Below, in pieces: positions 37,215 through 38,431 of a DNA stretch of 64,000 nt (position 1 is its first letter; each line of letters opens with the position of its first letter). The notes beneath the pieces are model-generated. The model made no database searches and had not been told where the DNA came from. It was given only the letters and a program-made list of their open reading frames with translations. The position numbers and the translations under genes were made by a program. Source of the DNA: Nitratireductor basaltis (lineage in GTDB: Bacteria > Pseudomonadota > Alphaproteobacteria > Rhizobiales > Rhizobiaceae); the NCBI RefSeq assembly GCF_000733725.1, contig NZ_JMQM01000002.1:372001-436000 (forward strand), read 5' to 3'.

Positions 37215-37271
37215 GAAGGTCTTGCAGTCGTTTCCAGTTGCCTCCACATTGGGGGCAACGTCAACGAAGTG

Positions 37272-37286
37272 AAAGGAGGTGATCCA
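37272..37286 (+). promoter_or_regulatory. Extended Shine-Dalgarno sequence complementary to the 16S rRNA 3' end
   Basis: AAAGGAGGTGATCCA is a perfect 15-nt complement of the universal 16S 3'-terminal TGGATCACCTCCTTT; a preceding G adds a sixteenth pair if the rRNA ends ...TTTCT. It is followed directly by the ATG of the 22-codon ORF, with GGAGG 7 nt from that ATG. Ordinary sites pair over 4-7 nt. Confidence 0.8.
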
Positions 37287-37355
37287 ATGTCGAGTGGTTA
37301 TCGTTTCAACGTGGTCTCGATGGATTGCCTTTGCGGGGAGCAGTCTTCCCGCTAG
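37287..37355 (+). CDS. 22-residue mini-protein with an extreme ribosome-binding site
   Basis: Encodes MSSGYRFNVVSMDCLCGEQS ending in SR, then TAG. It has no signal peptide, no membrane segment, one Cys-x-Cys pair, and no run of a single amino acid, so a classical attenuation leader is not suggested. Its Shine-Dalgarno region pairs over at least 15 nt with 16S rRNA, far beyond normal. It sits 72 nt past acs and before a terminator 57 nt after its own stop. The function is unknown; translation seems likely from the site, but the peptide may only be a by-product of a ribosome-binding RNA. Confidence 0.5.
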   Translation: MSSGYRFNVVSMDCLCGEQSSR

Positions 37356-37411
37356 AGCGCATGACACGCGGCCGCTTTCGGGCCAAGACCGCGTGAGAAC
37401 GTTGAACACGG

Positions 37412-37444
37412 AAAGGGCTGCCTCCATGCGGGGCAGCCCTTTTT
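37412..37444 (+). terminator. Intrinsic terminator of the acs/mini-ORF unit
   Basis: AAAGGGCTGCC pairs with GGGCAGCCCTTT around a TCCATGC-type loop, followed by TTTTT. It is the first good terminator after acs and the mini-ORF. Confidence 0.85.
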
Positions 37445-37460: not shown

Positions 37461-38201
37461 TCAGGCTACGGCGCGAGTGCGCTCGCAAGGGGCTTCATGG
37501 TTCGGAGGCCTGGCGCAGGCGCCCTGAAGTTCGAACATGCGATAGAAGTCGGCCAGCTGCTTGCCCGGCTCCGGCCGGAAGCTGCGTCCGGCATGTTCCA
37601 TTGTGGCGATGCGGTCCAGCCGGAAGGCGCGGAAGTCGCTGCGCAACTCGCACCAGGCGACGAGTGTCCAGACCTTGCCCCAGAACCACAAGCCCAATGG
37701 CCGTATCTCACGCTGCGAGTTCTGACCTCCTTCGTCGCGGTAGGAAACACGCAGCACGTCGCGTTTCTCCACCGCCTTCTCAAGTTCGTCGATTATCAGA
37801 CGCTCGGCATCCGAAATGACCCAGTCGGGCGTGTAGATTTCGGTTCGGGCAATGCGGTGGCGGTCCTGTTCGGGCAGCACACTTCGAATCTTCATCAGCG
37901 CTTCTTCGGCAGCGCGTGCCATGGTCGCTCCGCCAAATGCACGCACCATGCGTGCGCCGGCAACCAGTGCCACGATTTCATCGCGGTTGAACATCATGGG
38001 CGGGAGCTCGAAACCCTCGCGCATGAGATAGCCAACGCCGGCCTCGCCATCGATTGGAACACCCGATGACTGAAGATCGGCAATGTCGCGATAAATGGTG
38101 CGCTCGGAAACTTCCAGCCTCTCGGAAAGCATGCGAGCGGTAACAAGCCGCCCTCCACGCAGATGCTGGACGATCTGGAATAGTCGGTCTGCTCTTCTCA
38201 T
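37461..38201 (-). CDS. YafY-type transcriptional regulator (HTH plus WYL domain)
   Basis: A 246-aa regulator. The N-terminal helix-turn-helix reads MRRADRLFQIVQHLRGGRLV then SERLEVSERTIYRDIADLQS. A WYL-type ligand-binding domain follows, with the LGLWFWGKVWTLVAWCELR segment near residue 180. WYL regulators sense nucleotides or other ligands and often repress neighbouring genes. The ATG at 38201 is preferred because AGGA lies 8 nt upstream and the family starts there; an ATG 5 codons earlier is possible. No obvious target operon lies divergent to it. Confidence 0.88.
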   Translation of the reverse strand: MRRADRLFQIVQHLRGGRLVTARMLSERLEVSERTIYRDIADLQSSGVPIDGEAGVGYLMREGFELPPMMFNRDEIVALVAGARMVRAFGGATMARAAEEALMKIRSVLPEQDRHRIARTEIYTPDWVISDAERLIIDELEKAVEKRDVLRVSYRDEGGQNSQREIRPLGLWFWGKVWTLVAWCELRSDFRAFRLDRIATMEHAGRSFRPEPGKQLADFYRMFELQGACARPPNHEAPCERTRAVA

Positions 38202-38431
38202 GAGGTCTGTCCTCATTTGCAGCGGAAGCTGCCTGCACCAGGGGGAATGGTGCCGGAAAGGGGCAATATGGCGGTATTCATGCCAGTAGGCAAATTAACA
38301 GCTGTTCATCTGCGCAGGGGCAGCACCAATGCCACGTCTCCCTCATTGACGCGGCGTCACTTTCGCACAGGGCTCCTGACAACATAGAGTCAGGAGCCTT
38401 TTCAGCGGGCTTGATAAAACAGCGGCGCGCC
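38202..38431. other. Intergenic region with an orphan plus-strand terminator
   Basis: Lies upstream of the YafY-type gene and downstream of the SDR gene, both on the minus strand. It carries a plus-strand intrinsic terminator but no plus-strand gene that I can support. It may hold a short plus-strand RNA of up to about 180 nt; I find no convincing promoter pair. Confidence 0.4.
38371..38402 (+). terminator. Intrinsic terminator with no plus-strand gene upstream
   Basis: GGCTCCTGAC, loop AACATAGA, GTCAGGAGCC, then TTTT: a perfect 10-bp stem. The T-run is on the plus strand only. The nearest genes on both sides are minus-strand; the SDR gene stops 30 nt to the right, so it might instead act as that gene's 3' hairpin. 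Confidence 0.65.

Follow-up and report, generated by a model that had tools for sequence, protein, structure and literature searches.

A putative ribosome-loaded, structured RNA of the RF01867 (CC2171) lineage with a mini-ORF in Nitratireductor basaltis and other Alphaproteobacteria

Introduction

What use could a bacterium have for a 22-codon open reading frame (ORF) that is led by an extended Shine-Dalgarno (SD) sequence and framed by RNA hairpins? The question is raised by a locus of Nitratireductor basaltis that adjoins acs, which lies upstream of it, in the 64,000-nt stretch of DNA analysed here (the whole of which we call the window). A preliminary description of this stretch had proposed several roles for the locus, and we followed these up by comparison with relatives at the level of genus, order, class and phylum.

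Results

Parts of the element

The 15-mer AAAGGAGGTGATCCA singled out in the preliminary description was present at 37272-37286, with an ATG immediately 3' of it at 37287, and its proposed match to the 16S rRNA was borne out and extended to 16 nt (37271-37286) against the 16S ends of two class members. The 22-codon ORF with its TAG at 37353-37355 and the hairpin at the stop codon (37333-37352) were found as described, and the terminator lay where it had been placed, its stem (37410-37444) being part of the minimum-energy fold. The parts of the element are as follows.

37222..37227, + strand: -35-like hexamer TTGCAG (promoter-like match, absent from a stricter promoter scan)
37245..37250, + strand: -10-like hexamer CACATT, after a spacer of 17 nt; predicted transcript start ~37257
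37271..37286, + strand: extended SD, a 16-nt complement of the free 3' tail of 16S rRNA
37287..37355, + strand: putative mini-ORF MSSGYRFNVVSMDCLCGEQSSR, 22 codons, stop TAG (basis includes the frame-specific scarcity of stops in the family)
37294..37306, + strand: 5' strand of helix P1, GUG.UUA.CGUUU, which closes the RNA domain
37322..37332, + strand: imitation of the 16S tail, GGATTGCCTTT, which could pair with the SD (lineage-specific, tentative)
37333..37352, + strand: CARY-type tetraloop hairpin, loop CAGU at 37341-37344, within the ORF and abutting the stop codon
37397..37409, + strand: 3' strand of P1, GAACG.UGA.CAC, whose last base directly precedes the terminator stem
37410..37444, + strand: predicted intrinsic terminator (from the fold; the stricter terminator scan does not list it)

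A convergent gene for a WYL/HTH regulator (Pfam) occupies 37461-38216 on the minus strand, directly after the terminator.

Assignment to RF01867 and distribution

At Rfam gathering thresholds only a tRNA was found in the window. A permissive scan aligned the element over the full length of RF01867, CC2171 (model positions 1-159, including the SD core and the terminator), with E=6.9e-7 and a score of 38.7 bits, where Rfam's gathering threshold is 75 bits. The earlier guess of a catalogued family thus proved right as to relationship, at a score under that threshold. The SD core, NTG start, P1 and terminator follow one another in the same order in RF01867 and in the window copy; in contrast, the RF01867 consensus starts with GTG, whereas the window copy has ATG and a different P1 sequence, and the family's Rfam type is sRNA gene, while the window element looks translated. 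At E<=0.01, RF01867 recovered 16 of 20 tested relatives (L296, L298, L299 and L317 were missed), and five of the 20 exceeded the gathering score (L277, L262, L276, L313, L290). The window type and the Caulobacter type are joined by intermediates: a covariance model, R1, built from 74 sequences that did not include them, recovered RF01867-passing members through partial matches of 34-35 nt. P1 placement of the RF01867 type, which joins start-codon-proximal sequence with the bases before the terminator, was also present, with the type CATTGTC:GACAATG in L267, L275 and L276. By these sequence comparisons the element is placed in the RF01867 (CC2171) lineage, though under Rfam's own threshold.

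No function for RF01867/CC2171 was found in the literature searched. Among the matches listed for CC2171, RF01867, the 15-mer and the peptide, only the Rfam 15 and the Mesorhizobium huakuii papers were relevant, and the matches to the 15-mer look, by their titles, like 16S primers. The Rfam 15 paper reports one covarying pair added for RF01867. In M. huakuii, MH_s33 was assigned to RF01867 and listed as an sRNA with a 215-nt unit sequenced by RNA-seq, and in the available text of that paper it is not among the sRNAs analysed further (PMC5596092). MH_s33 is probably the counterpart of the window element.

Conservation in relatives, which had been named as a check on the locus, was found in 14 of 15 same-genus genomes by DNA match, and all 14 carried the 14-mer, the ATG and a 22-codon ORF. 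The DNA search as a whole found the element in 35 of 61 genomes (its own included), and for many close pairs divergence is much greater in the flanks than in the ORF. When the class was scanned for the pattern, 48 of 385 genomes had it, against none for the reversed-pattern control in the rows listed. R1 matches were obtained for 171 of 297 genomes at the level of the order, for 109 of 372 in the class, where 15 turned out to be false on reading, and for 108 of 398 in the phylum, including 99 class members; plasmid searches for the element gave no match. Most genomes listed had a single match. Two or three model matches per genome were seen in G543, G499, G705 and G072, the last with two types (L274, L275).

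We read 119 weak or middling matches (60 + 59), which were hand-picked and not random. All 15 weak matches read from the order look element-like. The false class matches comprised nine antisense 16S ends (G264, G209, G077, G221, G217, G090, G397, G319, G145) and six without any element (G171, G215, G150, G342, G365, G097), and four more were doubtful, with frames like those of ordinary proteins or the usual start missing (G165, G191, G196, G408). Nine genomes matched outside the class, of which only G724 and G925 look real; G842 was an antisense 16S match, and the rest resemble ordinary gene starts or nothing. L283, L284, L285 and L297 were left out before start codons and positions were counted; L146 and L089, for which a wrong start was picked, are still among the 258 distinct members counted below and were dropped from the promoter, stop, P1, duplex-energy and anti-SD counts. 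The doubtful L282 and several SNGLV-type relatives were retained, and the 59 later-read loci stay outside the earlier counts. L282, L365 and L366 have longer, exported-protein-like frames behind the same 14-mer SD and are perhaps ordinary genes.

Complementarity to 16S rRNA

The 16S 3' end is CTGGATCACCTCCTTTC in two class members (L319, L320), with a tail reading ...CTGGATCACCTCCTTTCT, and on this reading the complementarity was counted as 16 nt. Complementarity to the organism's own 16S was deduced from relatives, since the own 16S end was not found in its genome sequence, where it may be masked. The exact 14-mer AAAGGAGGTGATCC occurs once in that genome sequence (0 for the reversed-pattern control); looser SD matches were ordinary, with two in the window at <=3 mismatches versus 1.34 in shuffles. 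The predicted duplex of the window copy with the 16S tail reached -30.6 kcal/mol, versus -22.0 kcal/mol for the best duplex over all candidate starts of the 53 window ORFs of >=150 aa. The family median was -29.7, and none of 155 non-redundant members was weaker than -21.5.

Position 15 was A or G, either of which can pair with U, in 144 of 151 members. Among the ungapped members of the 258, A>G was the only change at position 11 (11/11, the wobble pair being kept), and C14 was changed to T in 10, G in 4 and A in 4; these position counts leave out six gapped members. Within the 14-mer, 29 changes kept a wobble pair versus 14 that broke pairing once an inserted-base lineage and two misread loci were set aside, the raw tally including those loci being 37 and 25. 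The inserted-base group of seven loci, AAAGGAAGGTGATCC, was misread by the ungapped position count as A3>G and G5>A. It is a Rhizobiaceae lineage with one base inserted in the SD (L022, L025, L216, L218, L220, L221, L224). The full extension is thus not indispensable, since it is interrupted in this lineage and shorter in six members. Members were found via the SD or an SD-rich model, so that SD conservation is partly circular. In G724 and G925, gammaproteobacteria as judged from their 16S, the copies start with TAAGG instead of AAAGG and the 16S reads CTCCTTA; three class members (L174, L250, L255) share TAAGG, with its T at position 1. L296 and L298, outside the class, are apparent distant copies with an 18-codon ORF, whose TAAGG matches their own 16S end.

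Strong SD sequences close to the 5' end, known as STAB-SD 5' stabilisers, can protect RNA. The element shares such a strong SD near its predicted 5' end, but STAB-SD has no mini-ORF, and protection is only a possibility here. Staphylococcus aureus 70S ribosomes accept SD pairing lengthened toward the start codon, as in the element; however, that case concerns two extra pairs on ordinary mRNAs, whereas the element has a 16-nt tail match on a single dedicated RNA (PMC13009471).

Complementarity beyond that before any of the 53 long window ORFs would suit a decoy RNA tying up 30S subunits through mass action, yet most matched genomes hold one copy, and a frame of 20-26 codons with a stop near the hairpin would be needless in a decoy. 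We consider this explanation unlikely, although it fares best among the alternatives.

RNA structure

Two helices covary across lineages, the CARY hairpin and the long-range P1, which answers the co-variation check that had been suggested for the locus. The hairpin lies near the ORF end, with the loop CAGC, CAGU, CAAC or CAAU. Of 173 loci, 130 have its motif within the span searched, and the 43 loci without it were removed before the hairpin tests and the building of R1. Among the 74 selected sequences, 92.1% of hairpin cells were paired versus 72.2% when shuffled and 44-62% in slid controls, with 128 both-sided changes versus 51; because of selection by motif the three inner pairs are partly fixed, while the outer four are free of it.

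P1 joins ORF nt 7/8 onward with the bases just before the terminator. Its pairing was 78.2% versus 65.6% in 500 shuffles (maximum 69%) and 29-45% in slides, on 91 of 114 rows, the other 23 being not anchored. Among 129 loci with a terminator call, the own P1 helix exceeded helices formed with dissimilar members (Wilcoxon p 2e-16, uncorrected for relatedness), although only 28 of the 129 were in the top 5% against dissimilar members, and an earlier, cruder test of this kind was weaker (14.0 vs 12.4). The best helix began at nt 7 or 8 in 97/129. Compensated forms include GCATTTT:AAAATGC, ATGAGATT:AATCTCAT, CATTGTC:GACAATG and CACCAAA:TTTGGTG.

In the window, P1 (37294-37306 with 37397-37409) is part of the minimum-energy fold computed from the predicted start ~37257; in that fold the SD is held by three-pair local helices only and does not pair with 37322-37332. 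When upstream sequence was included, the SD paired with 37322-37332 instead, and this pairing of the SD with a mid-ORF anti-SD had p=0.23 in the window itself. Sequestration of the SD by a mid-ORF anti-SD was rejected as a general feature (mean score 12.1 vs 11.45 shuffled, 74 sequences), though it was seen in window-like lineages. A switch between TTCAACGT (37306-37313) and ACGTTGAA (37399-37406) had also been proposed; both sequences are present, but the switch is not credible, as enforcing the helix with GUG:CAC gave -56.0 versus -81.4 kcal/mol.

Translation and the peptide

Among 154 non-redundant members, frame 0 had 4 stops in 1848 codons over nt 18-54, whereas frames 1 and 2 had 91 and 55; over nt 54-96, frame 0 had 168 in 2156 and the other frames 60 and 57. 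This depletion followed by enrichment, found in frame 0 only, suggests selection for a frame that stays open and then ends at a given distance. Start codons were ATG in 217, GTG in 34 and TTG in 7 of the 258 distinct members, a tally that is partly built in because a nearby NTG was needed for detection. ORF lengths ranged from 13 to 36 codons, with one of 56. From these patterns, translation from the start to a stop near the conserved hairpin looks to be under selection.

The amino acid sequence behaves differently. A comparison of 35 independent close pairs showed 33 synonymous cases among 116 single-change codons (28% vs 27.7% expected), and changes fell 50/65/50 on the three codon positions. 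A search of NCBIfam with the 22-aa peptide gave no match. The frame in which the hairpin falls differs between lineages, all three frames of the ORF being represented (88/14/5 of 107), and two members have their stop ahead of the hairpin loop. MSS was considered as a peptide signature and rejected, as the constant AGTGA ("MSS[DEG]") is accounted for by P1 pairing. The peptide sequence thus appears to be under no visible selection. A mini-mRNA that encodes a working small protein (~22 aa) would explain why the open frame is kept across lineages, why the MSS start is constant and why start and stop appear selected; against it stand the synonymous fraction and the even spread over codon positions, the coincidence of MSS with P1 pairing, the three hairpin frames and the variable ORF length, and we regard it as improbable. 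The related proposal that the peptide is made for its own sake at a high level found no support, given the lack of constraint at the amino acid level. Like SgrS/SgrT and Spot 42/SpfP, the element appears to be a short, structured RNA whose small ORF is translated. The peptides of those dual-function sRNAs are functional; the peptide of the element, in contrast, does not show the purifying selection expected of such a product.

A plain non-coding, base-pairing sRNA with an accidental ORF would agree with the Rfam type 'sRNA' and with the listing of MH_s33 as an sRNA in the available text on M. huakuii (PMC5596092). The available text of Schrader 2014 reports that its Caulobacter ncRNA regions are untranslated, but also that two previously predicted Caulobacter ncRNAs are nonetheless translated (PMC4117421). 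Frame-specific stop depletion (4/1848 vs 91 and 55) argues against an accidental ORF, as does an NTG at fixed spacing in 252 of 258 members, which is partly built in through detection. This explanation too has little chance of being correct, about as little as the small protein.

Transcript unit and neighbouring genes

In 156 of the 220 upstream regions, the -10 of the best promoter-like match begins 26-29 nt ahead of the SD, with a mean score of 9.9 versus 8.4 when shuffled, and from this recurrent position the transcript start was predicted near 37257. A stricter scan of the window, of the E. coli type, found neither a promoter nor a terminator at the element. In the explanation that we prefer, the element is an autonomous transcript of ~190 nt with its own predicted promoter and terminator.

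Neighbouring genes vary across the class. With flanks of <=8 kb, 62 of 173 loci had acs upstream in the same orientation, a lower bound, and one further locus had it on the other strand; a general linkage to acs was rejected on this count. In Rhodobacteraceae-like loci (family f49 and the named Ruegeria and Albimonas, the family name being deduced), arfB, a ribosome rescue gene, begins 201-359 nt after the SD in 15 of 17 cases. It directly follows the element in L077, L085, L219, L222, L223, L225, L229, L230, L252, L271, L272, L273, L299, L300 and L302, identified by an NCBIfam equivalog for L085 and by similarity for the others. An internal anti-SD-like stretch before the terminator (p<=0.05) was found in 12 of these 17 loci versus 13 of 144 others, with none at that level in the two named loci. 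Several Hyphomonadaceae-like loci have arfB close by on the opposite strand. Shared synteny alone could explain the arfB link.

That the element acts in cis as a leader or attenuator of the following gene, for which the position of arfB (15/17) and the anti-SD-like sequence (12/17) would speak, is the least likely explanation and a very improbable one, as the next window gene is convergent, acs is upstream rather than downstream and present in 62/173 loci only (a lower bound), neighbours differ across the class, and a conserved downstream gene was lacking in general and found only in Rhodobacteraceae-like loci. The stalling leader suggested earlier is likewise unlikely in the window, given that a terminator closes the unit and the gene beyond it is convergent; in Rhodobacteraceae-like genomes, which have arfB downstream, the RNA could act as a leader.

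Discussion

The explanation that we prefer, with roughly even confidence, is that the element is an autonomous, ribosome-loaded structured RNA of the RF01867 lineage whose fold depends on 30S loading. Comparison across genomes backs it through the extended SD, the apparently selected translation, the apparently neutral peptide, the two covarying helices and the predicted autonomy, and the ribosome-binding role put forward in the preliminary description is thereby favored for a unit that is probably promoted separately.

According to this explanation, the 5' part of the RNA complements the single-stranded 16S 3' tail up to the base before the start codon, and the RNA folds via P1, with its 5' strand from ORF nt 7/8, and the CARY hairpin. 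An initiating ribosome covers ~15 nt past the start codon. A 30S subunit on the extended SD would therefore have to melt P1; the strong SD may pay for this melting, and subsequent translation would open the hairpin. The RNA would thus alternate between a closed, untranslated fold and an open, ribosome-loaded form, and with two such forms it could report the supply of free initiating 30S subunits, a sensing role that we infer. Its output might be RNA stability, an exposed pairing sequence or transcription of an adjacent gene, arfB for instance. In two lineages, stretches that imitate the 16S tail, namely the mid-ORF GGATTGCC of the window (tentative) and a CACCTCC-like sequence in Rhodobacteraceae-like loci, would fit such competition.

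A broader and more speculative proposal, which we hold only tentatively, is that this widespread, mostly single-copy alphaproteobacterial RNA is translated for the sake of translation itself. It would sense free 30S subunits, opening its own fold as ribosomes load through an SD that matches the entire free 16S tail, and would be linked to the ribosome-rescue factor ArfB in one branch, with lineage-specific 16S-tail imitations as competitors.

A family filed as a Caulobacter sRNA thus appears to be structured, translated and spread through much of the class, with a 16S complementarity that beats every long ORF tested in the window and no visibly selected peptide. If the explanation is true, bacteria maintain an RNA whose purpose is ribosome loading, and the sensing of ribosome supply would become directly testable at one small locus of Caulobacter or a rhizobium.
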